Below, piece after piece: positions 41,020-62,600 of a stretch of DNA of 64,000 nucleotides. The translations under genes were made by a program, and so were the position numbers. The stretch is from the NCBI RefSeq assembly GCF_018069705.1, contig NZ_CP072943.1:2357453-2421452 (forward strand), in the 5' to 3' direction. Every line of letters begins with the position of its first letter. The first letter of the stretch is position 1. The notes beneath the pieces are model-generated. The model saw only the letters and a program-made list of their open reading frames with translations, was not told the DNA's origin and ran no database searches. The DNA comes from Aminithiophilus ramosus (GTDB taxonomy: Bacteria; Synergistota; Synergistia; Synergistales; Aminithiophilaceae).

Positions 41020-42330
41020 TGGGGCGGCGGGGTTTGCCCCTCCTGGGAGCGCGGCCATCTTGGCGGCGCGCGGGACGGGGCTATCGTCCCGCAGGGTTTC
41101 CCGGCTTGAACGACGTTACCTCGGCGATGGCGAAAGACGTGCCCCTGCTGGAAGCGCGTTTCGCCGGAGGCGGCGGGTTTTGCCCCTCCTGGGAGCGCGG
41201 CCCGATGTGGCGACGTGGGGCTCCTCGCTGGGATTCCGGACCCCGCTGCGGCGACATCCTGCCCCTGTCGGAAGCGCGGCTCGCCCGATGCGGCGGGGTT
41301 TTTGCCCTTGCTGGGAGCGCGGCCATCTTGGCGGCGCGCGGGACGGGGCTATCGTCCCGCAGGGTTTCCCGGCTTGAACGACGTTACCTCGGCGATGGCG
41401 AAGACGTGCCAGGGAACCCCTCCGTCCCTTCGGGCCGGGCGCGGGCAGGATGCCCACGCTCCCAGGAAAAGCCACTGCCACGAAACGGAACTTGCCGTTT
41501 CTTCCGAAGCGAGCCGAGACGGGGACGCTCCCAGGAAAACCCCGCTGAGAACGGAGGGTTGCTTGACGGAAAGCGCGCGCTCGACGACGGAGTGCCTGTT
41601 ACGGGAGTAGACGGACTCGGCTGCGGCGCCAGGCTTTTGCCCTTGCCGGAAGCGCGTTTCGCCGGAGGCGGCGGGTTTTGCCCCTCCTGGGAGCGCGGCC
41701 CGATGTGGCGACGTGGGGCTCCTCGCTGGGATTCCGGACCCCGCTGCGGCGACATCCTGCCCCTGTCGGAAGCGCGGCTCGCCCGATGCGGCGGGGTTTT
41801 TGCCCTTGCTGGGAGCGCGGCCATCTTGGCGGCGCGCGGGACGGGGCTATCGTCCCGCAGGGTTTCCCGGCTTGAACGACGTTACCTCGGCGATGGCGAA
41901 GACGTGCCAGGGAACCCCTCCGTCCCTTCGGGCCGGGCGCGGGCAGGATGCCCACGCTCCCAGGAAAAGCCACTGCCACGAAACGGAACTTGCCGTTCCT
42001 TCCGAAGCGAGCCGAGACCGGGACGCCCCCAGGAAAGCCACTGCCACGAAACGGAACTTGCCGTTCCTTCCGAAACAGGTCGAGACGGTGACGTTCCCAG
42101 GAAACCCACTGCCACGAAACGGAACTTGCCGTTTCTTCCGAAGCACATCAAGACGGGGACGCTCCCAGGAAAACCGTCGCCGCCCGAGAGGGTAACGGCA
42201 TACCATCTCCAGCGCTTCTCGCACCCGGCAGGGTCGCCACGCTCCCGAGACAACCCGCGCCGCGCAGATCTGACACGGCACGGTAGCCGCTCTCCAAGGG
42301 AAAGCCGAACGGAACTTCATTTAAAATAAA
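41020..42330 (+). repeat. Modular repeat array B
   Basis: About 1.3 kb of non-coding modules follow the ABC gene. It has two copies of the core GGGCAGGATGCCCACGCTCC (41443 and 41941) within a 498-bp direct duplication (about 41143-41470 and 41641-41968). Other modules are a hairpin GCGGGAC...GTCCCGC (about 41068-41092, 41335-41360 and 41834-41859), several copies of GGAACTTGCCG and repeated GCCCC(T/C)CCTGGGAGCG strings. Since 498 is a multiple of three, frames stay open by chance; they look Pro/Arg/Gly-rich and lack ribosome sites. Confidence 0.9.
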
Positions 42331-42355
42331 TGAAACTTCAGCTGGAGGATTGACC

Positions 42356-43939
42356 ATGCTTTTCTCGACAATCGGCTTTTTCTCCTGGATCGAAGGCGGC
42401 AACAGAAAACTCCGGTGGCTCATGGTACCGGTCCTCTCGGGGCTGATAGCCGGGGTAAGCCTTCTCGTCTATTTCACCGGTGGGATCAAGTACGTTTTCT
42501 CTCACTCCATGTACCTGCCGATCCTGCTCTCCGGCCTGCTCTTCGGCGTCCGAGGAGGAACTCTGTCCGGCCTCCTCGGAGGAATCGCCCTCGGGCCGTT
42601 TATGCCCCTCGATCTCCTGACGGGCGAGATGCAGCACCCACTGAACTGGATCTACCGGACCGCCATCTTCGCTCTCTACGGCGCATTTGCGGGGCTCGTG
42701 AGCGACGGTGTCGGCCGTCATGTTCAACGCTTCCACTGGGTCGCCCACCATGACGAAGCGACGGGGCTGCCCAACCTATCGGCTCTCGGCGACGATCTGA
42801 AACGGTTGAGCGCGAAGGAAACATCTCCAGCCCTGGCTCTCCTGTCGGTGGAAAACATCTCCGAACTGAAGGGGGTCTTCGGCCCTCAGGTAACCCACGC
42901 CGTCATCAGGCAACTCGCCGACAGGAGTCGCCAGGCCCTTTCAGGACTGAAACAGGTCTACCGCACCGACATCCAGGAACTGAGTCTCCTTTTCAGCGGA
43001 AGAGGCAGGGAAGAGCTGGATGCCGAATTGCAAAAGCTGACCCGTCTCTACCTGCAGCCGTTTTTCTTCAGAGACATACCGCTTCACTGCGACATCAGGA
43101 TCGCCGTCGTCTCCGTGGAAAATCGATGCACCTCGGCCGATACCTGCCTGCAGCTCGCCGAATCCGCCCTGCTCAGAGCCCGCCAGGAAAACCAGGATCT
43201 GATCACCTGCGACGAGAGGCAGATCGAGGACACCATCTGCCTCCTGGGAGAACTGAAAGAGGCCCTTAAGGCAGGACAGCTGCACGTGCACTACCAGCCT
43301 CTCGTCTCGACCCGGGACGGTCGCGTCGAGCTCGTGGAGGCTCTGATCCGCTGGCACCATCCGCAAAGGGGAGACATCCCCCCGGGGAAATTCATCCCCA
43401 GGGCCGAGAAGAGCACCCTCATCCACCAACTGACTCACTTCGTCCTCGACTCCAGCCTGGCCCAGGCGGCCCTCTGGCACGAATCCGGCATCGATCTGAC
43501 CGTGGCGGTCAACATCTCGGCGAAGAACCTCGCCGATCCCGACTTCACCGACAGCGTGCTGGCCCTCCTCGACAAACACCGGGTTCCCGGCCGCCGTCTC
43601 GTGCTCGAAATCACCGAGGGCAACTTCCTCTCCGACATCAAACACTGCATCGGAGAACTGAAACGACTGGCCGAAGCGGAGATCCGCATCGCCATCGACG
43701 ACTTCGGCACAGGCTATTCGTCCCTCGCCTACCTGCATGAGCTGCCCGTATCGGTCGTCAAAATCGATCAGAGTTTCGTCTTCGACCTGCCGAAGGACAA
43801 AACGGCGGCCAGCATCGTCGGAATGGCCCAGGGACTGGCCCGACGGCTGGGAATCCGGGCCGTGGCGGAGGGCGTGGAAAACCGCGACGCCCTCGATTTG
43901 TTTTCGTCAATCGAAAAGGTACCCATCATGATCCTGTAA
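42356..43939 (+). pseudogene. GGDEF/EAL membrane protein, 5' part, cut by IS21-family element
   Basis: A c-di-GMP phosphodiesterase-type protein cut by an insertion. The N-terminus is a membrane sensor of four or five helices, followed by a degenerate GGDEF domain (HDEATGLPNL is seen, but no GGDEF string) and an EAL domain with VEALIRWHH, DDFGTGYSSLAYL and KIDQSFV and AEGVE. Genuine coding ends at base 43898; the last 14 codons (to TAA 43939) come from the insertion element. Removing 43899-46304 rejoins the frame and restores LQGYLIARPM and the normal C-terminus, total 555 residues. ATG 42356 has GGAGG 7 bases before. The truncated form lacks the last EAL strand and is probably inactive. Upstream 42331-42355 holds only the ribosome site. 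Confidence 0.92.
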
Positions 43940-43961
43940 AAGGAGCCCACCCCTACTGCCG

Positions 43962-44705
43962 TCAGGCGTTCAGTTCTTTGGTGCTGCGCTGAGCGAATCG
44001 ATAGGATTCCCCCTTGAAGACGAAGATGTGAGCGTGATGGGTCAGGCGGTCCAGGAGCGCCTCGGTCAGGGTGGCGTCGCCGAAGACTTCAGGCCAGCGG
44101 CTGAACTCCAGGTTCGTGGTGATGCAGACGCTCTTCCGTTCGTACCGATCCGCGAAGAATTGGAAGAGAGGTGCTCCGCCGGGACCCAGTCCCAGGTAGC
44201 CCAGTTCGTCGACGATCACCAGGTCGTACCGGTCGTAGCTTTTGAGGAGCTTGGGAAGCCGGTGTTCGTCCTGGGCGAGGAGCAGTTCCTGGGCCAGGGT
44301 CAGGGCGGTGGTGAAGCGGACCGAACATCCCGCCGCGACGCAGCACGCCGCGAGGCCGATGGCGATGTGGGTCTTGCCTGTGCCCGAGCTGCCCAGGAGG
44401 ACCAGGTTTTCCCCCCGTCCGACGAAGCCTCCGTCGGCGAGGGAGAGAAGCTTGTCCTTCGGGAGGGAGGGAAGCCGGAGGAAGTCGTAATCCGAGAGGG
44501 ACCGGGCGTAGGGGAGTCTGGCCGATTTCAGAAGGTTCCTGAGCCGTTTCTCCCGGCGGGAGGCGCTTTCAGCCTCCAGGCTCTCGCGGAGGTAGTCCCC
44601 GGGGGCCATGTCGGCACCGCCATGCCGGTAATAGCTCAGGACACCGGGAAGCCTGAGGTCCCGGCAGAGGCGTTCGACGGCCATGTCCCGGATCTCCGCG
44701 TTCAT
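43962..44705 (-). CDS. istB: IS21-family ATP-binding transposition helper IstB
   Basis: A 247-residue AAA+ ATPase that helps the IstA transposase choose and remodel its target. Walker A GSSGTGKTH (about residues 105-113) and Walker B DLVIVDELGYL (about 167-177) are intact; the N-terminal domain is the usual IstB helical region. The ATG at 44705 shares one base with the istA stop (TGATG), so translation is coupled. Stop codon lies 63 bases inside the left end. The upstream in-frame extension into istA is not coding. Confidence 0.95.
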   Translation of the reverse strand: MNAEIRDMAVERLCRDLRLPGVLSYYRHGGADMAPGDYLRESLEAESASRREKRLRNLLKSARLPYARSLSDYDFLRLPSLPKDKLLSLADGGFVGRGENLVLLGSSGTGKTHIAIGLAACCVAAGCSVRFTTALTLAQELLLAQDEHRLPKLLKSYDRYDLVIVDELGYLGLGPGGAPLFQFFADRYERKSVCITTNLEFSRWPEVFGDATLTEALLDRLTHHAHIFVFKGESYRFAQRSTKELNA

Positions 44706-46159
44706 CAGGCCACCTCTTCTTTGAGCAGAGCGTCGTAGCGTCCCGGATCGGGGGCGGGAAGGGGCAGTTCCGCGAGGGAGTCCGGAACGGCGACAGTGAG
44801 ACTGGCCGAAGGCGTTTTGTTGAGAAGCAGCTGGCGAACCGTCTCCGCCGTAACCCTCTTCAGGGCCAGGGCCTCTTCGAGGGCTTGCGTCAGGGCCTCG
44901 TGGGAATGGTCCCGGTGGAGCTGGAGGATGGCACAGAGTTCCCTGTAACCCGAATGGGCGCACAGGAGCGTCCGGGCCTTCTGCCAGGGCTCCTCCAGAT
45001 CCCGCACGACTGCCGCATTTCGGACGGCCCCGGGTTTCGCCCGCAGCAGCGGCAGGTAGTGGACAAGTTCCATGGAGGCCTTACCCTTCCCGGAGAGGCG
45101 GCGATGATTCGCCAGAACCTTTCCTCGGCTGGAGACACGGACACGGTCCCAGGTGACGGAGAGGTCGACGGCCTCTTTCTCGTGCCCTACCGGGACCGAG
45201 TAGACGTTGCCCTCGAACCGGACCAGGGAGGTCCGGCTCACCACCGACACGGTGGTGAGGGCACAGGGATGAGGTATCTCCGGAAGAGGCATAAGCCGTA
45301 GGGCTTCTTCTTCGAAAGAGGCTGCGCGCCTCTGCCGTTCCCTCCCGCACCAGTCGGCCAGGACGGAATTGAGATCGTCCAGTGTCGCCAGGTCCGGCAC
45401 GGGAACCAGGGCGTTCCTCCGCACATAGCCCACCAGGTTCTCCACGGAACCCTTCTCGTTGCCGCTTCGGACGTTGCAGAAAGAACTGTCGAAGAGGTAA
45501 TGGCCCCGGAGGGCCGAAAAGTGCCGGTTCTCTTCCCGGTTCGGCCCCGGGAGGACCTTGGTCACCGCCGACTTGAGGTTGTCGTAGACGCATTCCCTGG
45601 GTACCCCGCCGAAGGACTCGAAGGCACGTCGATGTCCCGCCATGAAGGCCTCCAGCCCGTCGTCGGGAAAGGCGTACACGAAGGGAGCACCGCTGTGGCG
45701 AAGGCGCATGCAGAAAAGGTAAATCCTCCGTTCCTCCCCTCCGATGCGGACCAGAGCCTCGCCCCAGTCCACCTGGGCCTGCTCGCCCGGATATGCCGTC
45801 AGGGGAACGAACCCCTTCTCCGGGGTGATCTCGCTCTTCAGGTCCGACACGACCTTGCGGATGTTGGACTCGCTCCCACTGAAACCGTGCTCCGCCACCA
45901 AACGGTCGTAGACGCGCTTGGCGGTATGGCGCTGTTTCCCGGGGGCGTTTCGATCCTCCCGGAGCCAGGTCCGGATGATCTCCAGGTAGGGACCCGTCAC
46001 CGGTCTGGGACGGGGAGCTTTCAGCCTGTAAGCGGGGATCTCCGAGTCCCTCAGCATTCTGCGGACCGTCTTCCGGCATATTCCCGTCTGCCTGGTGATC
46101 TTCCTGATGGACCAGCCTTCCCTGAAGTGCTGTTTGCGGATATATTCTTTGTCGACCAT
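44705..46159 (-). CDS. istA: IS21-family transposase IstA
   Basis: A 484-residue DDE transposase. An N-terminal helix-turn-helix (WSIRKITRQTGICRKTVRRM) is followed by the integrase core: QAQVDWGE, then YDNLKSAV, and EKGSVENLVGYVRRN supplying the acidic triad in order. A C-terminal beta-barrel and tail follow. Two starts are possible; ATG 46159 is nine bases after GAGGAG, while ATG 46168 abuts it, so 46159 is preferred. The gene is intact. Confidence 0.94.
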   Translation of the reverse strand: MVDKEYIRKQHFREGWSIRKITRQTGICRKTVRRMLRDSEIPAYRLKAPRPRPVTGPYLEIIRTWLREDRNAPGKQRHTAKRVYDRLVAEHGFSGSESNIRKVVSDLKSEITPEKGFVPLTAYPGEQAQVDWGEALVRIGGEERRIYLFCMRLRHSGAPFVYAFPDDGLEAFMAGHRRAFESFGGVPRECVYDNLKSAVTKVLPGPNREENRHFSALRGHYLFDSSFCNVRSGNEKGSVENLVGYVRRNALVPVPDLATLDDLNSVLADWCGRERQRRAASFEEEALRLMPLPEIPHPCALTTVSVVSRTSLVRFEGNVYSVPVGHEKEAVDLSVTWDRVRVSSRGKVLANHRRLSGKGKASMELVHYLPLLRAKPGAVRNAAVVRDLEEPWQKARTLLCAHSGYRELCAILQLHRDHSHEALTQALEEALALKRVTAETVRQLLLNKTPSASLTVAVPDSLAELPLPAPDPGRYDALLKEEVA

Positions 46160-46299
46160 CCCGTGCATCTCCTCTCGTCCTCCCCGCGAAGCGGAATCGC
46201 CGTTCCTTTCGCAGGATGATAAGGGAACGGGTACGGGGTGGTCACCTTTTTCAGGATCGATTACCTCTCGGGTGGGACCCTTTTAGGTTAGCGAAAACA

Positions 46300-46429
46300 C
46301 GATTTCCTCGTCAGCCGGGATGTCGATCTTTTGCAGGGCTACCTGATCGCCCGTCCCATGGCGGCCGAGGACCTGACCCGATGGTATCGGAGTCTGCCCG
46401 AGCCGGGCATCTGGCATCTCGTCGATTAA
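46300..46429 (+). pseudogene. GGDEF/EAL gene, 3' remnant
   Basis: Continuing the frame from 43898 into 46305 gives FLVSRDVDLLQGYLIARP and ends in TAA 46427-46429. GYLIARPM is the conserved end of EAL domains (QGYxxxxPxP). The first five bases (CGATT) are the target duplication. The remnant has no start or promoter of its own. Confidence 0.94.
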
Positions 46430-46439
46430 CTGGCCCATT

Positions 46440-48760
46440 CCCGAAAAGGCAAGAGACACGAAAGAGACGGAAGAAATTCCCTTCCCGGGAGCAGCCCCCC
46501 CCCGGGAGCGCGGCTCGCTGGGGGCGGCGAGTTTTGCCCTTGCTGGGAACGCGTTTCGCCCGATGCGGCGGGGTTTGCCCCTCCCGGGAGCGCGGCCCGA
46601 TGTGGCGACGCGGGGCTCCTCGCTGGGGTTCCGGACTCCGCTGCGGCGGCGTCTTGCCCCTGTCGGAGGCGCGTTTCGCCCGATGCGGCGGGTTTTGCCC
46701 TTGCTGGGAGCGCGGCCATCTTGGCGGCGCGCGGGACGGGGCTATCGTCCCGCAGGGTTTCCCGGCTTGAACGACGTTACCTCGGCGATGGCGAAGACGT
46801 GCCGGGAACCCCTCCGTCCCTTCGGGGCGGGCGCGGGCAGGATGCCCACGCTCCCAGGAAAACCCACTGCCACGAAACGAGACTTGCCATTCCTTCCGAA
46901 ACAGGTCGAGACGGTGACGTTCCCAGGAAACCCTCTGCGGACAGGCTTTTTGCCCCTGCTGGGAACGCGTTTCGCTGAGGCGTGGAGGTTTTGCCCCTGC
47001 TGGGAACGCGTTTCGCCGGAGGCGGCGGGGTTTGCCCCTCCTGGGAGCGCGGCCATCTTGGCGGCGCGCGGGACGGGGCTATCGTCCCGCAGGGTTTCCC
47101 GGCTTGAACGACGTTACCTCGGCGATGGCGAAGACGTGCCGGGAACCCCTCCGTCCCTTCGGGCCGGGCGCGGGCAGGATGCCCACGCTCCCAGGAAAAG
47201 CCACTGCCACGAAACGGAACTTGCCGTTTCTTCCGAAGCAAGCCGAGACCGGGACGCCCCCAGGAAACCCACTGCCACGAAACGGAACTTGCCGTTCCTT
47301 CCGAAACGGGTCGAGGCGATGGCGCTCCCGAGAAAACCCTCTGCGGACAGGCTTTTTGCCCCTGCTGGGAACGCGGCCATCTTGGCGGCGCGCGGGACGG
47401 GGCTATCGTCCCGCAGGGTTTCCCGGCTTGAACGACGTTACCTCGGCGATGGCGAAGACGTGCCGGGAACCCCTCCGTCCCTTCGGGGCGGGCGCGGGCA
47501 GGATGCCCACGCTCCCAGGAAAAGCCACTGCCACGAAACGGAACTTGCCGTTTCTTCCGAAGCAAGCCGAGACCGGGACGCCCCCAGGAAACCCACTGCC
47601 ACGAAACGGAACTTGCCGTTTCTTCCGAAGCAAGCCGAGACCGGGACGCCCCCAGGAAACCCACTGCCACGAAACGGAACTTGCCGTTCCTTCCGAAACG
47701 GGTCGAGGCGATGGCGCTCCCGAGAAAACCCTCTGCGGACAGGCTTTTTGCCCCTGCTGGGAACGCGTTTCGCTGAGGCGTGGAGGTTTTGCCCCTGCTG
47801 GGAACGCGTTTCGCCGGAGGCGTGGAGGTTTTGCCCCTGCTGGGAGCGCGGCCATCTTGGCGGCGCGCGGGACGGGGCTATCGTCCCGCAGGGTTTCCCG
47901 GCTCGAACGACGTTACCTCGGCGATGGCGAAGACGTGCCAGGGAACCCCTCCGTCCCTTCGGGCCGGGCGCGGGCAGGATGCCCACGCTCCCAGGAAAGG
48001 CAGCGACCCCGACACGGAGCTCGCCGTTTCTTCCGAAACGGGTCGAGGCGATGGCGCTCCCGAGAAAACCCTCTGCGGACAGGCTTTTTGCCCCTCCTGG
48101 GAGCGCGGCCATCTTGGCGGCGCGCGGGACGGGGCTATCGTCCCGCAGGGTTTCCCGGCTTGAACGACGTTACCTCGGCGATGGCGAAGACGTGCCAGGG
48201 AACCCCTCCGTCCCTTCGGGCCGGGCGCGGGCAGGATGCCCACGCTCCCAGGAAAAGCCACTGCCACGAAATGGAACTTGCCGTTCCTTCCGAAACAGGT
48301 CGAGACGGTGACGCTCCCAGGAAAGCCCGGCTGCGGACGGAGGGTTGCTTGACGGAAAGCACGCGCTCGGCGACGGAGTGCCTGTTCCGGGAGTAGACGA
48401 ACTCGGCTGCGGCGGAGGGGTTTGCCCCTCCTGGGAGCGCGGCCATCTTGGCGGCGCGCGGGACGGGGCTATCGTCCCGCAGGGTTTCCCGGCTCGAACG
48501 ACGTTACCTCGGCGATGGCGAAGACGTGCCGAGAACCCCTCCGTCCCTTCGGGCCGGGCGCGGGCAGGATGCCCACGCTCCCAGGAAAAGCCACTGCCAC
48601 GAAACGGAACTTGCCGTTCCTTCCGAAACACATCAAGACGGGGACGCTCCCAGGAAACCCACTGCCACGAAACGGAACTTGCCGTTCCTTCCGAAGCGAG
48701 CCGAGACGGGGACGCTCCCAGGAAAGGCAGCGGCCACGTACCGGGAGAAGCCGATTTTTA
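46440..48760 (+). repeat. Modular repeat array C
   Basis: About 2.3 kb of the same module family as array B, same strand. Six copies of GGGCAGGATGCCCACGCTCC (46837, 47172, 47496, 47972, 48229 and 48562), each followed by AGGAAA and a unit around GGAACTTGCCGT. Each is preceded by a GGGACGGGGCTATCGTCCCGC hairpin module and often by GCCCCTGCTGGGAACGCG. Spacing varies (257 to 476). Open frames across it are compositional artefacts. Confidence 0.9.
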
Positions 48761-48825
48761 CACCGACGTTTTTTGGATGGCAGGTTTTTTCAGGTACAAT
48801 GGACGTTTAGGAAGGGGAGATCTTC

Positions 48826-50208
48826 TTGAACGAACGTACCCGCTCCTTGGGCGAAACCGCCATCGGCCGCCTTCTCATCCGCCTTTCCCTGCCCGCCATG
48901 GTGGGCATGCTCGTCCAGGCCTCGTACAACCTCGTCGACGCCTTCTTCATCGGTCACGGCGTCGGCTCTCTCGGTCTGGCAGCCACAGCCGTCGCCTTTC
49001 CCTTCCAGCTCATGATCATGGCCATCGCCACCACGGGAGGGGTGGGAGCCGCCTCGATCATCTCCCGCAACCTCGGCTCAGGCGACATCGAACGGGCCGA
49101 CAGGACGTTGGGCACGCTCATTACGACGGCCACCGTCCTCGGGATCGTCGGGGCCCTCCTCTCATGGATCTACATCGAGCCGCTTCTCCGCCTTCTCGGA
49201 GCGACGAAAGACATCTTTCCCTACGCCGAGGCCTACGTCTCCGTCGTCCTCTTCGGCATTCCCCTTCAGGTCTTCGGCGTGGGGCTCAACAACGCCGTCC
49301 GCGCCGAGGGAAACGCCCGCATCGCCATGATCACCATGTTCGTCTCCGCCGTGACCAACATGATTCTCGATCCTCTTTTCATTTTCACCTTCAAGATGGG
49401 CATCGCCGGAGCGGCCTGGGCCACCGTCATCGCCCAGGGAGCCGTCGTCGTCTGGCTTCTCCTCTACTACCTCATGGGCAAAAGCGCCCTCAACCTCCGC
49501 CCGGTCCATCTCATCCCCCGACGCGACATCCTCGGCGAAATGCTGGCCGTAGGCTCCTCCGAGTTCGCCCGCCTTTCCGCAAACAGCGCCATCGTCGCCC
49601 TCGTCGTCCGCTCCGTCGGGGTCTACGGCGGCGACATGGCCATCGCCGCCTACGGCGTCGTCAGCCGCACCCTCTCCCTGGCCTTTCTGCCCATCTTCGG
49701 CATCGCCCAGGGCATGCAGCCCATTTTGGGCTACAACTACGGGGCTCGCCTCTACCAGCGGGCCCATCAGGTGATCCGCCTCTCCGTCGCCTTCGCCTCG
49801 ACCTGGTCCTTTATGGCCTGGGTTCTGGTCCTTCTCTTCCCCGGCCCCATCTTCAGCTTCTTCACGCCCGACGCCGATCTCCAGGTTTTGGGCGCCCGTT
49901 CGATGCGCTACATGACCTTCGGGTTCTGCCTCGTCGGCTTTCAAGTCATGGGGTCGGCCCTTTTCCAGGCTCTGGGCAAGGCCCGACCGGCCTTCTTCCT
50001 CTCGCTGTCGCGACAGGTCCTCCTTTTCCTGCCTCTACTCTATTTTCTTCCCCCCTTCCTGGGACTCATGGGCGTCTGGCTTTCCTTCCCCGCCGCCGAT
50101 GTCCTCTCGGCCCTCATGACCTTGTACTTCTTCCGGCGTCAGATGAAACAGCTCGAGGCCTGCGACGGCCGGCTCCCCTCCCTTTCCGCCGACAATCTCA
50201 CTGAGTGA
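48826..50208 (+). CDS. MATE-family multidrug/metabolite efflux protein
   Basis: A 460-residue, 12-helix protein of the MATE family (Na+ or H+ driven export of cationic compounds). The N-terminal half starts with LSLPAMVGMLVQASYNLVDA (about residues 24-43) and FIGHG; the second half repeats the arrangement with FLPIFGIAQGMQPILGYNYG (about 285-304). The start is TTG 48826, 6 bases after GGGGAG; a -10-like TACAAT (48795-48800) lies just upstream at the edge of the repeat array. The 3' end abuts a convergent LysE gene (one base apart), so the genes share no terminator room. Confidence 0.92.
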   Translation: MNERTRSLGETAIGRLLIRLSLPAMVGMLVQASYNLVDAFFIGHGVGSLGLAATAVAFPFQLMIMAIATTGGVGAASIISRNLGSGDIERADRTLGTLITTATVLGIVGALLSWIYIEPLLRLLGATKDIFPYAEAYVSVVLFGIPLQVFGVGLNNAVRAEGNARIAMITMFVSAVTNMILDPLFIFTFKMGIAGAAWATVIAQGAVVVWLLLYYLMGKSALNLRPVHLIPRRDILGEMLAVGSSEFARLSANSAIVALVVRSVGVYGGDMAIAAYGVVSRTLSLAFLPIFGIAQGMQPILGYNYGARLYQRAHQVIRLSVAFASTWSFMAWVLVLLFPGPIFSFFTPDADLQVLGARSMRYMTFGFCLVGFQVMGSALFQALGKARPAFFLSLSRQVLLFLPLLYFLPPFLGLMGVWLSFPAADVLSALMTLYFFRRQMKQLEACDGRLPSLSADNLTE

Positions 50209-50209
50209 T

Positions 50210-50824
50210 TCAGGCGAAAAGGAAACGGGTCCCGATGATCCAGAGGCCGAAGGCGAGGAGGGCGAGCCCGGCCCCCTTTTGAAGCAGGGCGAAAATCCCC
50301 TGGGGAAGGCGCTCCCTCAAGAGGGCCGTCACTCCGGCCAGAATCAGCCACCAAAGCGCCGACCCGACGAAGACGCCGCCGACGACGACTTGAGGGAACC
50401 GCCCTCCGCCGAGAGCGCCGAGGGCGGAGAAGAGGGCGGCGAAAGAGAGCAGGGTCATGGGGTTGGTCAGGGTAAGGCCGAAGGCCGAAAGGAAGTCGAC
50501 GACAGGGCCTTGTGAAGGGCCCCCGCCTTCCTTCGGGACCGGAGGACGGTGACGGAGGAAACCCGCTCCGAGGAACGCGAGAAAAAGCCCCCCGCCTCCG
50601 GCCAGAGGCCTTTCGAAGGCGACGAGGCGCGAGGCCACGGCGGCGAAACCGGAGGCGGCGACAAACCCGTAAAAACCGTCGGCCGTCGCGGCCCCCAGCC
50701 CCGAGGCGAGACCTGCCCAGAACCCCCGCTCCAAGGTGCGGCCGACGCAGAGAAGCCCTATCGGGCCCAGAGGCAGGGCGATGGAAAACCCGATCACGAG
50801 GGCTTCGACGAAAAGGAGCGCCAT
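50210..50824 (-). CDS. LysE/RhtB-family amino-acid exporter
   Basis: A 204-residue, six-helix membrane protein of the LysE/RhtB family. The first helix has VIGFSIALPLGPIGLLCVGR (the conserved GPxxL turn) and the second half has TLTNPMTLLSFAALF, both typical. Such exporters remove excess amino acids (lysine, threonine, homoserine). The start ATG 50824 lies two bases after the stop of an Lrp-type regulator, giving a standard regulator-exporter operon. Relation to the nearby MATE gene is only convergent. Confidence 0.9.
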   Translation of the reverse strand: MALLFVEALVIGFSIALPLGPIGLLCVGRTLERGFWAGLASGLGAATADGFYGFVAASGFAAVASRLVAFERPLAGGGGLFLAFLGAGFLRHRPPVPKEGGGPSQGPVVDFLSAFGLTLTNPMTLLSFAALFSALGALGGGRFPQVVVGGVFVGSALWWLILAGVTALLRERLPQGIFALLQKGAGLALLAFGLWIIGTRFLFA

Positions 50825-50826
50825 TT

Positions 50827-52829: not shown

Positions 52830-52849
52830 CCTCTCTCGTGGCGCGCCCT

Positions 52850-53515
52850 ATGGCAAAAAACCGGAACCTCGAGGAACAGGCCTACCAGCACATCCGCCGG
52901 GCCATCATCGCCCGACGCTGGCAGCCCGGAACGAGACTCTTCGAGCCCCAGATCGCCCAGGAACTGGCGATCAGCCGCACTCCCGTCCGCAACGCCCTGC
53001 GGCGTCTCGCCGCCGACGGCATGGTGGCCCTCAACGCCAATCTGGGGGCGCAGGTCATGGAGCCATCGCAGAAACTCATCCGCGATACCTACTTCATGAG
53101 GGAGATCATCGAACCCCAGGCGGCGGCCCTGGCCTGCCGTCAGGCCCGACCTTCCGACACGGAACGCCTCGAGGAGCTGCGCGACGAGGAAGTGGCGGCC
53201 TTCCGGGCCCGCGACCTGGAGCGCTACATGGAAGTCAACGACGCCTTCCATTTGCTCATCGCCTCCCTCGCCGACAACGGCGTCCTCGAAAACGCCGTCA
53301 GGCGCCATCTCACCATGACCAACGTCTTTCTCTCCCTCCTGGACCCCTTCTACACCATCGGCCAGGACGAGATGGATTCGTTCCGGGAGCACGGCGACAT
53401 CGTCCGCCACATCGCCCGCGGCGACGGAGAGAGCGCCCGGGCGGCCATGGTGATCCACATCCGCTCCTCCCGTTCCTGTCTGCGCGTCAGCCGCATCGCC
53501 GACGGCCCTTCATAA
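52850..53515 (+). CDS. GntR-family transcriptional regulator (FCD subfamily)
   Basis: A 221-residue regulator with winged helix (IAQELAISRTPVRNALRRLAADGM, about residues 36-59) and FCD domain (with EVNDAFHLLIASLADN, about 122-137). ATG 52850 is used; an in-frame GTG at 52838 is a possible alternative and neither has a strong ribosome site, so coupling to the upstream dehydrogenase (20 bases away) is likely. It lies next to a saccharopine-dehydrogenase-like gene whose promoter carries an inverted repeat. A long repeat array starts within a few bases of its stop codon. Confidence 0.85.
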   Translation: MAKNRNLEEQAYQHIRRAIIARRWQPGTRLFEPQIAQELAISRTPVRNALRRLAADGMVALNANLGAQVMEPSQKLIRDTYFMREIIEPQAAALACRQARPSDTERLEELRDEEVAAFRARDLERYMEVNDAFHLLIASLADNGVLENAVRRHLTMTNVFLSLLDPFYTIGQDEMDSFREHGDIVRHIARGDGESARAAMVIHIRSSRSCLRVSRIADGPS

Positions 53516-53517
53516 CC

Positions 53518-55640
53518 GCGCTCCCAGCAAAAGCAAAACCTCCGCGGCCAGGCGAAGCGACGCTCCCAGCAGGGGCAAAACCCTCGCGGCCAGGCGAAGC
53601 CGCGCTTCCGGCAAGGGCAAAACCCCGAGGTCAGGCGGAGCGACGCTTCCGATAGGGCCCCCGGCCGAACGGAGCCTCGCAGCCCGGGAAAGTCGCCCTC
53701 CGACGGCGGTTTTCCTGGGAGCGTGGGCATCCTGCCCGCGCCCGCCCCGAAGGGGCGGAGGGGTTTCCCCGCGCCATCGCCGCCGAAGCGACGGCGACCG
53801 AGGAGGGAGACCCTGCGGGACGAAAAGTCCGTCCCGCGCGCCGCCAAGGATGGCCGCGCTCCCAGCAAAAGCAAAACCCTCACGATCAGGCGAAGCCGCG
53901 CTTCCGGCAGGGGCAAAACCCCGCGGCCAGGCGAAGCCGCGATTCCGGCAAAAGCAAAATCCTCGCGGTCAGGCGGAGCCGCGCTCCCGATAGGGCCCCC
54001 GGCCGAACGGAGCCTCGCGGTCCGGGAAAGTCGCCTTCCGGCGGCGGTTTCCCTGGGAGCGTGGGCATCCTGCCCGCGCCCGCCCCGAAGGGGCGGAGGG
54101 GTTTCCCCGCGCCTTCGCCGCCGAAGCGACGGCGACCAAGGAAGGGAGACCCTGCGGGACGAAAACCCCGTCCCGCGCGCCGCCAAGGATGGCCGCGCTC
54201 CCAATAGGGTCCCCGGCCGAACGGAGCCTCGCAGCCCGGGAAAGTCGCCCTCCGACGGCGGTTTTCCTGGGAGCGTGGGCATCCTGCCCGCGCCCGCCCC
54301 GAAGGGGCGGAGGGGTTTCCCCACGCCTTCGCCGCCGAAGCGACGGTGACCGAGGAGGAAAACCCTGCGGGACGAAAAAACCGTCCCGCGCGCCGCCAAG
54401 GATGGCCGCGCTCCCAGCAAAAGCAAAACCCTCGCGGCCAGGCGAAGCGACGCTTCCGATAGGGCCCCCGGCCGAACGGAGCCTCGCAGCCCGGGAAAGT
54501 CGCCTTCCGACGGCGGTTTCCCTGGGAGCGTGGGCATCCTGCCCGCGCCCGCCCCGAAGGGGCGGAGGGGTTTCCCCGCGCCATCGCCGCCGAAGCGACG
54601 GTGACCGAGGGAAAAACCCTGCGGGACGAAAAGTCCGTCCCGCGCGCCGCCAAGGATGGCCGCGCTCCCAGCAAAAGCAAAACCCTCACGATCAGGCGAA
54701 GCCGCGCTTCCGGCAGGGGCAAAACCCCGCGGCCAGGCGAAGCCGCGATTCCGGCAAAAGCAAAATCCTCGCGGTCAGGCGGAGCCGCGCTCCCGATAGG
54801 GCCCCCGGCCGAACGGAGCCTCGCGGTCCGGGAAAGTCGCCTTCCGGCGGCGGTTTCCCTGGGAGCGTGGGCATCCTGCCCGCGCCCGCCCCGAAGGGGC
54901 GGAGGGGTTTCCCCACGCCATCGCCGCCGAAGCGACGGCGACCAAGGAAGGGAGACCCTGCGGGACGAAAACCCCGTCCCGCGCGCCGCCAAGGATGGCC
55001 GCGCTCCCAGCAGGGGCAAAACCCCCGCGGTCAGGCGAAGCGGCGCTTCCGGCAGGGGCAAAACCCTCGCGGTCAGGCGGAGCGACGCTTCCGATAGGGC
55101 CCTCGGCCGAACGGAGCCTCGCGGCCCGGGAAAGTCGCCTTCCGACGGCGGTTTTCCTGGGAGCGTGGGCATCCTGCCCGCGCCCGCCCCGAAGGGGCGG
55201 AGGGGTTTCCCCGCGCCTTCACCGCCGAAGCGACGGCGACCGAGGGAAAAACCCTGCGGGACGAAAACCCCGTCCCGCGCGCCGCCAAGGATGGCCGCGC
55301 TCCCAGCAGGGGCAAAACCCCCGCGGTCAGGCGAAGCGGCGCTTCCGGCAGGGGCAAAACCCTCGCGGTCAGGCGGAGCGACGCTTCCGATAGGGCCCTC
55401 GGCCGAACGGAGCCTCGCGGCCCGGGAAAGTCGCCTTCCGACGGCGGTTTCCCTGGGAGCGTGGGCATCCTGCCCGCGCCCGCCCCGAAGGGGCGGAGGG
55501 GTTTCCCCGAGCCTTCGCCGCCGAAGCGACGGTGACCGAGGGAAAAACCCTGCGGGACGAAAACCCCGTCCCGCGCGCCGCCAAGGATGGCCGCGCTCCC
55601 AGCAAAAGCAAAACCCCCGCGGTCAGGCCCCGCCGGGGAT
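53518..55640 (-). repeat. Modular repeat array D (reverse orientation)
   Basis: About 2.1 kb of the module family in the opposite orientation to arrays B, C and E. Seven copies of the core (complement GGAGCGTGGGCATCCTGCCC) start at 53718, 54056, 54270, 54535, 54862, 55160 and 55456. Between them lie GCGGGAC...GTCCCGC hairpins and stretches of AGGCGAAGCxGCGCTTCCGGC with GGGCAAAACC. A 298/296 spacing of the last three copies marks a recent duplication. No gene is supported. Confidence 0.9.
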
Positions 55641-55670
55641 TGAACTGTCGCCGGGGATCGAACTGTCAAG

Positions 55671-57175
55671 GGACACTAAAAATGTCATCTAAAAAGAGGG
55701 TCTGAGGGACAATGAAAGTGTCGCTTTCGAGGGGCTGAAATCGCCCCCGTCAACAGCCCGCCTTGGCTTTCCTCCGCGGCGGAGGTCCTTCTAGGGAGGG
55801 GAACCCGTCCCTTGCTCGGAGCCGACCGCCGCGGCAGGAGGAGCGGGATTCTGTCGCCAGGGATGGTCTGCCGCCGGCTTCCTCTGCTTCTTCGTTTTGC
55901 ATGGAGTGCCTGTCTTCGTCTCGATGACAGGCGGGGGAGTCGCAGGGGGCTCTTTGTCGACGGCTGCGAGATCGTAGAGCCCGTCATGGACAAGAGCCAG
56001 GAGTTTCCCGTCGAGCTTCTCGATGACCTTGACCGCCTGTCCCCTGGCAAGAAGCAGGGGGCGTCTGCGGGGGCCTATCAGGGAGTACTGTTTTCCGTCG
56101 AGGGAAATCGTCGAGTCTCCCGAGGCCTTCCGGTCGGTCTGGCGAGTCAGGAGGAGATCGAGAGCGGGGCCGTCCGGCGGAGGGAGAAAGGCAGATGCCC
56201 CCTCTGCGGGAGGACGAGCGAACCTCGGGTTATGGACCTCTCCCGGGTAGGCGGCGAGCAGGACGTTGGCCTCTTCGATCGTTTTCACTCCGGCCAGTCG
56301 GAAGGCGACGACGAGACGATCCTGAAGAGTTCCCCAGAGCCTTTCGATCCGCCCCTTCGCCTGGGGAGACCCTGCAGGGACATAGCGAGTTCCGAGAGCC
56401 TCCAGAGCGCGGCCGAACTGGGTTACAGGCGCCGAGTCCTCCAGCTCCTCCTTGATCGTCAGTTTTTCCGACTTGGGAGAAAGGAAGATGGTGTGGCGGT
56501 CGGCGTAAAGCTCGCGAGGCACGCCGTGGCGATCAAGCATCTGACGGAGCACGCGGAAGTAGCCGAAGAGGCACTCATTCCTGGCCATCCACAGACCGAG
56601 GACCTCTCCTGTGGCATCGTCAATCACGCCGTGGAGAGTGCAACGCTCACCGATCTCGAACCAATCGAAAGGAGAGGCGTCCATCTGGACCAGATCGCCT
56701 CGTCGGGACCGTCGGACCCTGCGGGAACGCCGCTTCGGGGCCCGGTGGCGATGAACGAGGGACAGGTTCTCCGCGCGAAGGAAACGGGCGATGCTCTTGG
56801 CGCTCAGCACGAGATCATGCTCTTCGGCAAGGAGTTCGGCCATGTGCTGACAGCTCGTATCCCTGTAAAGACCCTTGGCCAGACTGACGACGAAATCCCG
56901 TGTCTCCTGAGAGATTCTGCGCCGGGACGGTTTGCCTCGTCCCTTGTGCAGGAGCCCCTGCGCTCCTTCTTCCCGGTAGCGTCGTTTGAGCCGAAAGACC
57001 TGACGGCGGCTCAGACCGAGCCGATCGGCCACCTCCTGAACCGTCAGGTTGCCCGCGACAGCCTCTTCCACCAACCCCAAGCGCCTTGCTTCTTTTGTCT
57101 TCATGAGTAGGTCTCTCCTGGTCGTCATAAGTGACATTTTCCCTGTCCTCTTCACGAGTGACAATACCATTGTCC
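55671..57175 (-). mobile_element. ISNCY-type insertion sequence
   Basis: About 1.5 kb with imperfect inverted ends: left GGACACTAAAAATGTCA, and the complement of the right end GGACAATGGTATTGTCA. It contains one intact transposase gene on the minus strand. A 16-17-base string CGCCGGGGATCGAACT occurs at 55649-55665 and (variant) 55631-55647 left of the element and at 57184-57200 right of it, in direct orientation. Ends are approximate and a target duplication was not fixed. Confidence 0.65.
55791..57104 (-). CDS. ISNCY-family DDE transposase
   Basis: A 437-residue transposase with an N-terminal helix-turn-helix (TVQEVADRLGLSRRQVFRLK), an integrase core with QMDASPFDWF, YADRHTIF and GRIERLWGTLQDRL supplying the acidic triad, and a Pro/Lys-rich C-terminal tail. 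The LVQMDxSPxDWF string followed by DDATGEVL is typical of the ISNCY group. ATG 57104 has AGGAGAG eight bases before; longer in-frame starts would lie inside the inverted end. The gene is intact, 120 bases inside the left end. Confidence 0.85.
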   Translation of the reverse strand: MKTKEARRLGLVEEAVAGNLTVQEVADRLGLSRRQVFRLKRRYREEGAQGLLHKGRGKPSRRRISQETRDFVVSLAKGLYRDTSCQHMAELLAEEHDLVLSAKSIARFLRAENLSLVHRHRAPKRRSRRVRRSRRGDLVQMDASPFDWFEIGERCTLHGVIDDATGEVLGLWMARNECLFGYFRVLRQMLDRHGVPRELYADRHTIFLSPKSEKLTIKEELEDSAPVTQFGRALEALGTRYVPAGSPQAKGRIERLWGTLQDRLVVAFRLAGVKTIEEANVLLAAYPGEVHNPRFARPPAEGASAFLPPPDGPALDLLLTRQTDRKASGDSTISLDGKQYSLIGPRRRPLLLARGQAVKVIEKLDGKLLALVHDGLYDLAAVDKEPPATPPPVIETKTGTPCKTKKQRKPAADHPWRQNPAPPAAAVGSEQGTGSPP

Positions 57176-57322
57176 GGCGACAACGCCGGGGATCGAACTT
57201 GACTTCGGCACAAAGCCGATTATGCTTTGGAGTGAGTCTCCTCCCTACCGGAACTATCGCATCCCCTCGCCGCGATGGAGAGGGACCAGGAGGGCACAGG
57301 AACTCGCGGAGGCCGCATAGCC

Positions 57323-60300
57323 ATGACGGGCTCGTATCACCTCGGCATCGATCTGGGCTCCACGACGGCGAAATTGGTCATCATGGAAGGAGATCAGATC
57401 CGTCTCTCCCTGTACCGCCGCCATTTTTCCGACATCCCCGCCACGCTCCTCTCCCTTCTCGACGAAGCGGCCCCCGTGATGACCGATCGGAACGTCACCG
57501 TGGCGCTCACCGGTTTCGGCGGAATGGGACCCGCCGAAAAACTGTCCCTTCCTTTCGTTCAGGAAGTCGTCGCCTGCACGACCGCCGTCGAAAAACGGCT
57601 GCCCGAGGCCGATGCCGTCATCGAGCTGGGAGGAGAGGACGCCAAGATCACCTACCTCCGCGGATCGGTGGAACAGCGCATGAACGGCGTCTGCGCCGGC
57701 GGAACGGGTGCTTTCATCGACCAGATGGCCGTCCTCCTCAAGACCGACGCCGCGGGCCTCGACGCCCTGGCCGCCGACGCCACGCAGATCTATCCCATCG
57801 CCTCGCGCTGCGGCGTCTTCGCCAAGGCCGACGTCCAGCCGCTCCTCAACGAAGGAGCCGCCCAAGAGGATATCGCCGCCTCCATCTTTCAGGCCGTCGT
57901 CAACCAGACCCTGACGGGCCTCGCTCAGGGACGGCCCCTGAAGGGAAAGATCGCCTTTCTCGGCGGCCCCCTCCACTTCCTCCCTCAGCTGAGGCGACGC
58001 TTCATCGAGACGCTGCGTCTTTCGCCCGACCGCGTCCTGCTTCCCGAGGAATCGCTCCATTTCGTGGCCCTCGGCGCAGCCCTGACGTCGCGAAAAGAGA
58101 GCCCCCGATCCTGGAGTTCCCTGCGGGCGGCCTTCGACGACCTGGCCCGTCGGCAGGAGAAAAAGGGAGACCACCTCCCTCCTCTTTTCTCCTCCGAAGG
58201 GGAGTACGAGGCCTTCAGGGCCCGCCACGAAAGCCACGTCGCCGACCGGGCCGACCTCGCCTCCTACCGGGGAGCGGCCTTTCTGGGCATCGATGCCGGC
58301 TCGACGACGACGAAGCTGGTCCTCCTCTCGGGCGAGGCGAAAATCCTCCACAGCCATTACGGAAGCAACGAGGGGCGTCCCCTTCAGTCGGCCCTGGAAG
58401 CTCTGCGCCGACTCTACGACGTCCTGCCCGAGGAGGTCTTCATCGGGCGGTCCGTCGTCACCGGCTACGGCGAGGCGATTCTCAAGGCCGCCCTCAACGT
58501 CGACGCCGGCGAGATCGAGACGGTGGCCCATTGTCGCGGCGCCCGTCACTTCGCCCCCGACGCCACCTTCGTCCTCGACATCGGCGGCCAGGACATGAAG
58601 AGCCTTTTCGTCCACGACGGCGTCATCGACGCCATCATGCTCAACGAGGCCTGCTCCTCGGGCTGCGGCTCCTTCATCGAGACCTTCGCCCAGGCCCTGG
58701 ACAGAACCGTGCAGGACTTTTCCCGAGAGGCCCTCTTCGCCGCCTCGCCCGTCGACCTGGGGACGCGCTGCACCGTCTTCATGAACTCCAAGGTCCGCCA
58801 GGCCCTCAAGGATGGGGCCGACAAGGGAGACTTGGCCGCGGGCCTGGCCTACTCGGTCGTCCGCAACGCCCTCTTCAAGGTCATCCGTCTCAAAGATCCC
58901 CGTGAACTGGGAGAATCGATCGTCGTCCAGGGGGGCACCTTCAACAACGACGCCGTCCTCCGGGCCATGGAAAATCTCCTGGGGCGCGATGTCGTCCGCC
59001 CTGACATCTCGGGCCTCATGGGCGCCTTCGGCGCCGCCCTCATCGCCCGGAGCGACTGGAAGGCGGGGACGACGAGCTCCCTCCTCTCCAAAGCGGACGT
59101 CGCCTCCTTCCACAGTGAAACGGAGACCCGCCGCTGCGGCCTCTGCGGCAACAACTGCGCCGTCACGGTCCGTCACTTCCCTGACGGAAGGACCTTCATC
59201 TCCGGCAACCGCTGCGAGAGGGGAGCCGGCCTGGAGAGACATCGCGACGACATCCCCAACCTCTACGCATGGAAACTCAAGCGGCTCTTCTCCTATCGGC
59301 CCCTGAACGAATCCGACGCCCCGCGAGGCCTCATGGGTCTCCCCCGGGCCCTCAACTTCTACGAAGATTACCCCTTCTGGTTCACCCTCTTCACCGAACT
59401 GGGCTACCGCGTCGTCCTCTCGTCGCCGTCGTCGCGGAGACTCTACGAATCGGCCATGGACACGATTCCCTCCGATTCGGTCTGCTACCCGGCCAAACTC
59501 GTCCACGGCCATATCGCCGATCTCGTCTCCCGCGGGGTGCGTAAGATCTTCTATCCCTCCATCCCCCTCAACATCGAGGAGAACTTCGAGGCCGACAACC
59601 ACTACAACTGCCCCGTCGTCACCTCCTACCCGGAGACGATCGCCGCCAACATGGATATCCTCGAAAGCGACGGCGTCCGATTCTACCATCCCTTCCTTCC
59701 CCTCGACGCGCCGAAACGGATGGCCCGGCGCCTCCTGGAAGAGCTGGCGCCGGAAAAACTGGGGAGGACCGAGACGGAAGAAGCCCTCAGAAGCGCCTAC
59801 GCCGAGCTGGCCCGGTTTAAAAGCGACACGCGCAGCCGGGGCGAGCAGGCTCTGGAAGAGATGGAACGGCGAGGGCTGCGGGGCATCGTCCTGGCGGGGC
59901 GCCCCTACCACGTCGACGGAGAGATCCACCACGGCATTCCCGAAATGATCACCGGCCTGGGGCTGGCCGTCTTCACCGAGGACTCCCTGGCTCACCTCGC
60001 CCGCCGAGGCGAGCCGCTCCGCGTCGTCGACCAGTGGCTCTACCACAGCCGACTCTACCGCGCCGCCGCCTTCGTCGCCGAAAGGAATGACCTGGACCTG
60101 GTCCAGATCACCTCCTTCGGCTGCGGCCTCGACGCCATCACGACGGACCAGGTCCGGGAGATCCTGGCCGAGAGGGGCAAGATCTTCACCCTCCTCAAAG
60201 TCGACGAAATCAGCAACCTCGGCACGGCCCGCATCCGCATCCGCTCCCTCCTGGCGGCCCTGGAGGAGCGGAGGAAACGGACACCGGCCCCCATCAGGGC

Positions 60301-61621
60301 CGCGCGGGCCATCGAACGGAAGGCCAAGGTTCTCTTCACGCGGGCCATGAAAAAAAGCTACACCCTTCTGGCGCCCCAGATGTCGCCCATCCACTTCCAG
60401 TTCCTCCAGGCCGCCTTCGAGAAAAACGGCTACGCCATGGAGGTCCTCCTCCGCGTCGACGCCTCCACCGTCGAAGAGGGGCTTCGGAGCGTCAACAACG
60501 ACGCCTGCTACCCCAGCATCATCCTCGTCGGCCAGGCCCTTCAGGCCCTCAAATCGGGCCGCTACGATCCGAACAGGACGGCCGTCCTCCTTCCTCAGAC
60601 GGGCGGCTGCTGCAGGGCCACGAACTACGTGGCCCTCATGCGCAAGGCCCTGGCCGACTCGGGCTTCGGGCAGGTTCCCGTCGTCCCCGTGGCCCTTTCG
60701 GCGGCCCTGGAGCGCCACCCGGGGTTCAAGATCAACCTCCCCCTCATCCGCGACGCCCTCAGGGGGACCCTCGTCGGCGACCTTCTCATGCGCGTCCTCT
60801 ACCGCATCCGCCCCTACGAAAAGGTGAAGGGCTCGGCCGACGCCCTCTGCGCCCGCTGGTCCCAACGCTGCATCGACCTTCTCCGCCGCGGCGACGGCCG
60901 GGCCCTGGGAAAGACACTGGAGGCCATCGTCTCCGATTTCGACGCCCTCCCCATCGACGACAGTCTCAAACCCCGAGTCGGCATCGTCGGCGAGATCCTC
61001 GTCAAATACCATCCGGGCGCCAACAACGACATCGTCCGCTTCCTCGAATCGGAAGGAGCCGAAGTGGTCGTCCCCGACCTCCTCGATTTCGGCCTCTACG
61101 GCCTCTACGACCACAAGGTGAGCCACGACATCCTCTCGGGCTCCCTGGCCCGGAGTCTGGCCGCCCAGACCCTCATCGCCCTCTTCGAATGGAAAAGGCG
61201 CGGCCTACGCCGCGCCCTCGCCTCGAGTCGCCGATTCCTCCCGCCTCCGACGATCGATCACCTCGCCCGAAGCGCCCAAAGCCATCTTTCCCTGGGCAAC
61301 CAGTCCGGCGAGGGGTGGTTTCTCGTCGGCGAAATGGTCGAACTCCTCGAACAGGGCGTGGAGAACATCGTCTGCATCCAGCCCTTCGCCTGCCTGCCCA
61401 ACCACATCTTCGGCAAGGGAATGATCCGCGACCTCCGCCGCGACTTTCCCAGGGCCAACATCGTCCCCATCGACTTCGACCCCGGCGCCAGCGAGGTCAA
61501 CCAGCGAAACCGTCTGAAACTCATGCTCGCCGTGGCCCACCGGGCCATGGAAGGCGACACCCCCTTCCCGGCCGACAGAGACCTCTCGTCCACCCCGCAG
61601 GAAAGAGGGGATAGGCCCTGA
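57323..61621 (+). CDS. Giant 2-hydroxyacyl-CoA dehydratase activase-related protein (BadF/HgdC duplicate plus HgdB-like part)
   Basis: A 1432-residue protein. It has two BadF/HgdC-type ATPase domains: the first starts [15 protein letters not shown] (about residue 6), the second [16 protein letters not shown] (about residue 319). Each carries the iron-sulfur-site neighbourhood, [10 protein letters not shown] (about 127) and [11 protein letters not shown] (about 440). A cysteine cluster CGLCGNNC (about 605) and an HgdB/DUF2229-type part with [13 protein letters not shown] (about 718) and [14 protein letters not shown] (about 1058) follow. Activases donate high-energy electrons to radical 2-hydroxyacyl-CoA dehydratases of amino-acid fermentation. 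ATG 57323 has GGAGG about 10 bases before it; an in-frame start at 57275 is less likely. No dehydratase gene is adjacent. Confidence 0.88.
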
Positions 61622-62600
61622 AACCCTCCGTCCCTTCGGGCCGGGCGCGGGCAGGATGCCCACGCTCCCAGGAAAAGCGCCGCCGGAGGAGCTGGCTTCC
61701 CGGACCACGCGGCTCCGTTCGGCCGGAAGCCCTGCCGGGAGCGCCGCTCCGCCTGGCCGCGGGGCCTTTGCCCCTGCTGGGAGCGCGGCCATCCCTGGCG
61801 GCGCGCGGGACGGGGCTTTCGTCCCGCAGGGGTTTCCGGCTCGAACGACGTCGCCTGAGCGGCGACGACACGAGGAAACCCCTCCGTCCCTCCGGGCCGG
61901 GCGCGGGCAGGATGCCCACGCTCCCAGGAAAAGCGACGCCGGAGGAGCTGGTTTCCCGGACCACGCGGCTCCGTTCGGTCTGAAGCCCTGCCGGGAGCGC
62001 CGCTCCGCCTGGCCGCGAGGCCTTTGCCCCTGCTGGGAGCGCGGCCATCCCTGGCGGCGCGCGGGACGGGGCTTTCGTCCCGCAGGGGTTTCCGGCTCGA
62101 ACGACGTCGCCTGAGCGGCGACGACACGAGGAAACCCCTCCGTCCCTTCGGGCCGGGCGCGGGCAGGATGCCCACGCTCCCAGGAAAAGCGCTGCCGGAG
62201 GGGCTGGCTTCCCGGACCACGCGGCTCCGTTCGGCCGGAAGCCCTGCCGGGAGCGCCGCTCCGCCTGGCCGCGGGGCCTTTGCCCCTGCTGGGAGCGCGG
62301 CCATCCCTGGCGGCGCGCGGGACGGGGCTTTCGTCCCGCAGGGGTTTCCGGCTCGGTCGCCGTCGCTTCGGCGGCGATGGCGTGGGGAAACCCTCCGTCC
62401 CTTCGGGCCGGGCGCGGGCAGGATGCCCACGCTCCCAGGAAAAGCGACGGCGACAAAGGGGCGGGAAACCCTCCGCCTCTTCAGGGCGGTGCGGGCAGGA
62501 TGCCCACGCTCCCAGGAAAAGCGACGGCGACAAAGGGGCGGGAAACCCTCCGCCCCTTCAGGGCGGCGCGGGCAGGATGGCCGCGTTCGCCCAGGTGGCG
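61622..62600 (+). repeat. Modular repeat array E
   Basis: About 1 kb right after the activase stop. Five copies of GGGCAGGATGCCCACGCTCC at 61649, 61905, 62161, 62416 and 62493; the first four are 255-256 bases apart, so three nearly equal direct repeats of 256 bp each carry the GCGGGAC...GTCCCGC hairpin, CGACGTCGC and a CCGTTCGG module. The last copies shorten to 77 bases. A degenerate sixth copy lies at about 62570. No gene. Confidence 0.9.

Follow-up and report, generated by a model that had tools for sequence, protein, structure and literature searches.

The window analysed here is a 64,000-nucleotide stretch of the genome of Aminithiophilus ramosus (contig NZ_CP072943.1, positions 2,357,453 to 2,421,452 of the forward strand). 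It contains four large repeat arrays, designated B to E, which a preliminary description had regarded as one modular family with about 20 copies of a 20-bp core. The family relationship was borne out, and we consider it very probable that the arrays are tandem clusters of REPINs (doublets of repetitive extragenic palindromic sequences, REPs, forming hairpins), i.e. of non-autonomous mobile hairpin pairs, which are served by the single REP-associated tyrosine transposase (RAYT) of this genome. All four arrays fall between Pfam-recognised genes: B lies amid genes that run in one direction, C is upstream of both its neighbours and E has convergent genes around it; the left neighbour of D is uncertain.

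The core 20-mer has 20 exact matches in the window, with none expected from 100 shuffles. Thirteen are on the forward strand (two in array B, six in C, five in E) and seven, all in array D, on the reverse strand. Eighteen of the 20 coordinates listed previously were correct, and two were slightly off (46835 instead of 46837, and 54525 instead of 54535). Likewise, the AGGAAA reported behind the core occurs, as CAGGAAA, after all 13 forward cores and three of the seven reverse ones, whereas the other four reverse cores are followed by CAGGGAAA. On its own strand the core reads GGGAGC-GTGGGCA-TCC-TGCCCGC, with a foot that does not pair and a hairpin whose 7-bp stem encloses a loop of three bases; we term it a T-type REP. 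In a C-type REP, GGGAGC-GCGGCCATC.. precedes the GCGGGAC...GTCCCGC hairpin, which had been noticed earlier and is indeed present in the arrays. T- and C-type REPs face each other, and a forward REP followed by a reverse one spans 144–151 bp in 64 of 64 cases; hence the unit of the arrays is a REPIN. It begins with GGGAGC and ends with GCTCCC, its feet pointing outward (GGGAGC and hairpin, spacer, hairpin and GCTCCC). The following features illustrate this organization.

Array B, 41020 to 42330, no strand assigned: five REPs plus foot-bearing modules of 68 bp and 41 bp.
REPs of array B: 41045 (+, C-type), 41313 (+, C-type), 41441 (-, T-type), 41811 (+, C-type), 41939 (-, T-type).
Example REPIN of array B, 41313 to 41463, 151 bp: C-type REP, spacer and inverted T-type REP.
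Array C, 46440 to 48760, no strand assigned: 11 REPs called (six T-type, five C-type) plus 68-bp and 41-bp modules.
Example REPIN of array C, 46706 to 46855, 150 bp.
Array D, 53518 to 55640, no strand assigned: 14 REPs (seven T-type on +, seven C-type on -), with 42-bp modules.
Example REPIN of array D, 53717 to 53863, 147 bp.
Array E, 61622 to 62600, no strand assigned: five T-type REPs on -.
Example REPIN of array E, 61779 to 61925, 147 nt: fold as single-stranded DNA of -55.1 kcal/mol, z -5.0.
One core copy, 61905 to 61924, + strand: foot and hairpin of the T-type REP (GGAGC-GTGGGCA-TCC-TGCCC), in reverse complement.

Array D thus consists of seven successive REPINs within 1.9 kb. The C-type partners in array E (61779, 62035 and 62291, all +) carry one extra base (CCATCCC) and were therefore missed by our ungapped scan. 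A whole REPIN folds as single-stranded DNA with a z-score of -5.0, and the T-type 23-mer hairpin folded alone reaches only -1.5. Feet are concentrated in the four arrays (79, or 11.7 per kb) as compared with the remaining window (25, or 0.44 per kb). Behind them we distinguish ten sequence groups across the four arrays, two of which are T-type variants, and the periods reported by Tandem Repeats Finder include 41–42, 68, 77, 256–257, 296, 324 and 338 bp. From these sequences we infer that the joining of pieces at the foot or close to it gives rise to the modular look.

Genome-wide, 107 core copies are present at up to one mismatch, all of them inside the stretches scanned for REPs. In an ungapped scan of these selected stretches, to which the search for C-type REPs at this tolerance was confined, REPs with up to four mismatches form 22 clusters that together occupy about 29.5 kb of 3.108 Mb; 19 of the clusters hold T-type (core) REPs. 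The largest (2498885 to 2504067; REPs joined at gaps under 1.6 kb) comprises 21 REPs in 5.2 kb and includes the RAYT gene. Among the other 18 clusters that hold T-type REPs, 12 are no more than 105 kb away from this gene, a limit which was chosen post hoc, and the clusters may share descent. Three clusters at 2472027 to 2479622 contain C-type REPs only, without T-type partners at four mismatches. Marking of the replication origin or terminus was considered and rejected: dnaA is located at base 325, and the clusters, at 1.90–1.94, 2.40–2.54, 2.77 and 0.089 Mb, are mostly far from the origin. GC skew, calculated from samples, had too much noise for the terminus to be located.

The RAYT gene (2502324 to 2502977, 218 amino acids) is the only Y1_Tnp match in the whole genome, and thus its only Y1/HUH transposase gene. 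The protein scores 100.3 bits against the REP_Tyr_transpos equivalog NF047646 (cut-off 80) and 30.7 against the IS200 model NF033573, i.e. below the cut-off of 55. Its best match in the Protein Data Bank is TnpA-REP of E. coli (4er8; E 3.2e-11), and the alignment displays NHVHV and YVAGNP, so that both the HUH and the Y---NP motif are present. REPs are found on both sides of the gene, also in a second strain of the species. The arrays had been described as a dispersed element family of unknown function; a family they are, yet the REPIN anatomy and the presence of the only RAYT in the largest cluster assign them to a known system. A known insertion sequence or retron carrying the strings had been named as a finding that would speak against such a new family. 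The RAYT partly corresponds to this. A retron is improbable, given that a search of the genome for RVT_1 detected no reverse transcriptase at E up to 0.001.

The second strain, Synergistota bacterium L-13 (CP074691.1), belongs to the same species as the window genome. By order and flanks, 19 of the 22 clusters were matched to L-13, with flank alignments 94–100% identical and most above 98%; the three C-only clusters at 2.472–2.480 Mb are not among them. The number of T-type REPs differs in 16 of the 19 matched arrays, to which assembly error in long repeats may contribute. The L-13 counterpart of the largest cluster has 28 REPs in 6.3 kb. An L-13 array at 2.842 Mb was dismissed as a candidate insertion event, this genome having an array at the same site. 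About 20 kb of L-13 (2401244 to 2421235) found no match here in the alignments made and contain a single C-type REP near the start, at 2401367.

Among Synergistota, four of 185 genomes match the RAYT at E up to 1e-12, all of one genus. At E up to 1e-20, 105 of 387 genomes in the phylum to which a metagenome-assembled genome (MAG) of Verrucomicrobiia belongs, and 58 of 392 in that of a Planctomycetia MAG, contain relatives; a plasmid search yielded two weak matches, 27% and 38% identical. For the 60 best-scoring loci, one per genome, of 163 matching genomes, including the two seed genomes, we asked whether hairpins recur beside the gene. Hairpins with a recurring 13-mer were seen at 52 of 63 loci in a first look (the 60 plus L044, L045 and L047). 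In a stricter test, hairpins recurring together with their 4-base foot were present at 43 of 60 loci, versus 0, 1 and 0 of 60 after shuffling three times; of 20 control loci, which carry distant Y1 genes of Synergistota, none had such hairpins. The earlier statement that similar strings exist in other phyla is supported insofar as similar hairpins do occur there, and the GRMPTLPG frame does arise from the core. The particular pattern GGGAGCGYGGSCATC has 208 matches in the window genome and, in a set of 60 relatives, single matches in two; the reversed control gave single matches in three of 60.

How the elements are bounded is seen in a Verrucomicrobial genome (G187) with 32 pattern matches. 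Among 20 stretches that we read, 16 are inverted pairs of 77–106 bp in unrelated flanks and four have no partner; in the pairs, sequence likeness begins at GGAGC and ends at GCTCC. In a sister genome (G002) the RAYT is 63% identical and lies amid repeats with the foot CGGAGC and a different stem. Two facing stem positions that were left free in a search pattern pair in 97 of 98 copies in the window genome, 104 of 106 in L-13, 21 of 21 in G002 and 22 of 22 in G187, as G-C, C-G or A-T (three pair types), the first two sets being from strains of one species. A tandem hairpin array beside the RAYT at locus L133 (phylum of G186), again with the foot CGGAGC, represents a second case of array growth; it has 19 copies of the counted 13-mer on both strands and a 147-bp period.

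Stems vary widely among the loci. Feet seen by eye are GGAG, GGAA, GGAC, GGAT, GGTA, GGTG, GTAG, GTGG and GTGA. Classes were assigned by eye to 38 of the 60 loci plus L046 and L047, with 22 of 60 left without a class; 30 classed loci have G-G-[A/T/G]-N, mostly followed by C, and 10 have GT[AG]N. An N-terminal column of the protein alignment holds glutamine in 29 of 30 GG-foot loci (that of the frameshifted L143 was read separately) and tyrosine in 10 of 10 GT-foot loci, and looks to be part of strand beta-1. Since the tree requires no more than one change of the foot label, this association represents one event and not independent support. Locus L123, from the phylum of G187, combines a GG foot with the tyrosine of the GT group and is possibly an intermediate. 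Flanking dinucleotides, inspected by eye, did not separate guide from cleavage-site models. The tree groups the window RAYT with the Planctomycetia one (support 90/76) on a long branch, a fork which is not among the well-supported ones. With the gene confined to one Synergistota genus, transfer of the RAYT between phyla appears likely.

Judged by its sequence, the system is a REPIN/RAYT system in the broad sense, with a non-canonical foot and large arrays. It is recognizable by its anatomy, the association with a RAYT, the sharp element boundaries in a relative and the copy-number difference between strains. Cleavage, mobility and the process that makes the arrays are inferred. By analogy with characterized TnpA-REP and IS200 enzymes, the RAYT would bind the single-stranded hairpin with the short foot as guide, cut near the foot and join the end elsewhere. 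REPINs could thereby settle at new sites, for the most part in the neighbourhood of the RAYT gene. Adjacent copies form direct repeats, between which slippage or recombination would then alter the copy number and so yield arrays, whether or not the RAYT continues to act at the feet.

Several observations weigh against this interpretation. In place of the canonical foot, GT[AG]G, the window genome has GGGAGC and G002 has CGGAGC. No new insertions were seen between the two strains, all 19 matched arrays being present in both, and the comparison revealed no pairs of filled and empty sites; a change in copy number alone could possibly reflect plain recombination. A second sister genome (G001, a draft) encodes a RAYT that is 65% identical and has only one REP-pattern match. 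Moreover, 17 of the 60 RAYT loci gave no recurring hairpin, and the Planctomycetia relative (L044/L143) is frameshifted in its record.

An alternative is that the arrays are satellite-like tandem repeats grown by slippage or recombination alone, with the RAYT as a passenger. It fits the differing copy number of 16 of 19 matched arrays in colinear flanks, and a study of REPIN populations ascribes their local amplification and loss probably to host replication and not to the RAYT (PMC8049555). Yet it leaves unexplained both the dispersed, sharply bounded pairs in unrelated flanks and the hairpins beside RAYTs at 43 of 60 loci from other phyla. We regard it as improbable, because its wording denies the RAYT any role; slippage and recombination may still explain how arrays grow, and recombination has this place in the REPIN/RAYT interpretation too. 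Retention of the arrays for a host function is compatible with that interpretation and, although unlikely, deserves more credit than the satellite model. Effects on transcript ends, mRNA stability or DNA topology have been proposed for REPs of other bacteria. The strong hairpins, the location between recognized genes and the 19 sites kept in both strains would agree with such a role, whereas the differing gene contexts of arrays B, C and E, the uncertain left neighbour of D and the lack of any Rfam match at gathering thresholds argue against it.

That the repeats are derivatives of another transposon, in the manner of miniature inverted-repeat transposable elements, is suggested by IstA/IstB-type genes (IstB-like ATPase, Mu/rve transposase; 43962 to 46168) of an IS21 element which adjoin arrays B and C. 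Judged by copy counts this is very improbable: a DnaA-domain search, by which IstB is picked up as well, gave three equal matches plus a shorter fourth, versus 22 REP clusters, and it is RAYTs that hairpin relatives accompany in other phyla. Equal-scoring DnaA-domain matches occur at two further places in the genome. Finally, direct and spaced repeats crossed by open frames might recall clustered regularly interspaced short palindromic repeats (CRISPR), a retron or coding repeats, for which we see hardly any chance. As the preliminary description had held, the arrays are not CRISPR, as far as the repeats alone can tell, since unique spacers are absent and the stretches between cores are themselves repeated; a retron is contradicted by the lack of an RVT_1 match. 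They also are apparently not a coding gene: of three array-crossing frames, two matched only HTH_28, in both cases below the curated cut-off or counted as no stretch, and the third had no match.

Beyond the assignment of the arrays to a REPIN/RAYT system, it is tempting to speculate, though we hold it to be rather doubtful in its entirety, that a RAYT branch of Verrucomicrobiota, Planctomycetota and one Synergistota genus exchanged GT[AG]G for a GG[AT]N guide along with a tyrosine-to-glutamine change in the apparent strand beta-1, moved between phyla with its hairpins and, in the Synergistota genus, built REPIN satellites by foot-to-foot joining. If so, GRMPTLPG and similar junk frames in different phyla would be footprints of a GG-foot RAYT system. 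The assignment itself ties a class of repeat strings, which the preliminary description placed in several phyla, to a named enzyme family. Provided that the GG foot is the guide, many natural RAYT/foot pairs would be at hand for studying how an HUH enzyme reads its guide. The two strains that differ at 16 of 19 matched arrays offer a handle on REPIN array growth.

Elsewhere in the window, related strings had been reported to flank the rpn genes. This claim proved weak: short foot-like strings do lie nearby, but no REP at up to four mismatches was found outside arrays B to E by the ungapped scan. Two adjacent Rpn-family nuclease genes are located on the reverse strand (16646 to 17887 and 17998 to 19245). 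Their stretches recur, 95–99% identical, around 1.907–1.911 Mb of the same genome and also in L-13, with short GGGAGCG...CGCTCCC strings beside them. A large protein with BadF/BadG/BcrA/BcrD ATPase and DUF2229 domains is encoded directly upstream of array E (57275 to 61621, +).

The literature already describes REPINs and RAYTs, as well as ordered REPIN clusters in tandem and clusters located next to RAYTs (PMC3116915; PMC3733652). The REPINs of Pseudomonas fluorescens SBW25 share with our arrays the inverted REP pair as the unit and ordered tandem clusters that include flanking sequence, and in that strain a different REPIN cluster lies beside each RAYT. The largest ordered cluster described there contains four REPINs and one REP in just over 700 bp, and tabled clusters, joined at 400 bp, have up to 12 REPs (PMC3116915). 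The arrays studied here are larger, as exemplified by array D with seven REPINs in 1.9 kb, and their foot differs. The account of the GTAG-tagged REP superfamily likewise includes large clusters in which flanking DNA is repeated (PMC3733652). Common features are a short unpaired tag 5' of the stem (mostly 6–9 bp in that superfamily), a small loop, paired and clustered copies, and a RAYT. The tag here is GGAG(C), however, whereas the degeneracy given in the text covers GYAG, GYRG, GTRG, GTMG and GTGG, never GG (PMC3733652). CGTC-tagged REPs, which lack an adjacent transposase, were discarded as a counterpart given the different foot and the RAYT found here.

The TnpA-REP REPtrons resemble our system in the HUH and Y---NP motifs and the REP-flanked gene, and REPs are concentrated near the gene as described for Marinomonas REPtrons (PMC6006769; PMC8266576). 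In the subclass survey, GT[AG]G served as an automatic search rule, classes 2.6 and 3 lack GT[AG]G, and no REPs were found for subclasses 2.1 and 2.3 (PMC6006769; PMC8266576); data on cleavage and guides come from a few other REPtrons (PMC8266576). With IS200/IS605 elements the system has in common the HUH-Y enzyme, the subterminal hairpin and the guide tetranucleotide (PMC6006769), and it differs in that the RAYT stays below the cut-off of the IS200 model, as given above. A text search for GGAG at word starts gave no match in the accessible text of PMC3733652, PMC6006769 and PMC2817692, a search that covers neither figures nor longer strings, and among open-licence literature we found no paper on a GG foot or on Synergistota REPINs. 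REPs of Pseudomonas putida such as TGTGGGAGCGGGC... (PMC2817692) share the string TGGGAGCGGGC with those of the window; we read their tag as the GTGG or GTAG upstream of GAGC, so that TGGGAGC would stand behind a GTGG tag. Hence, CTGGGAGC of the window might be a drifted GTGG type instead of a GGAG tag. We favour the latter because the elements of G187 are bounded by GGAGC and because L131 and L155 have GTAGC feet in parallel. Two features are unusual here: the hairpins have GGAG beside them where GTAG would be the usual tag, and the arrays are large.

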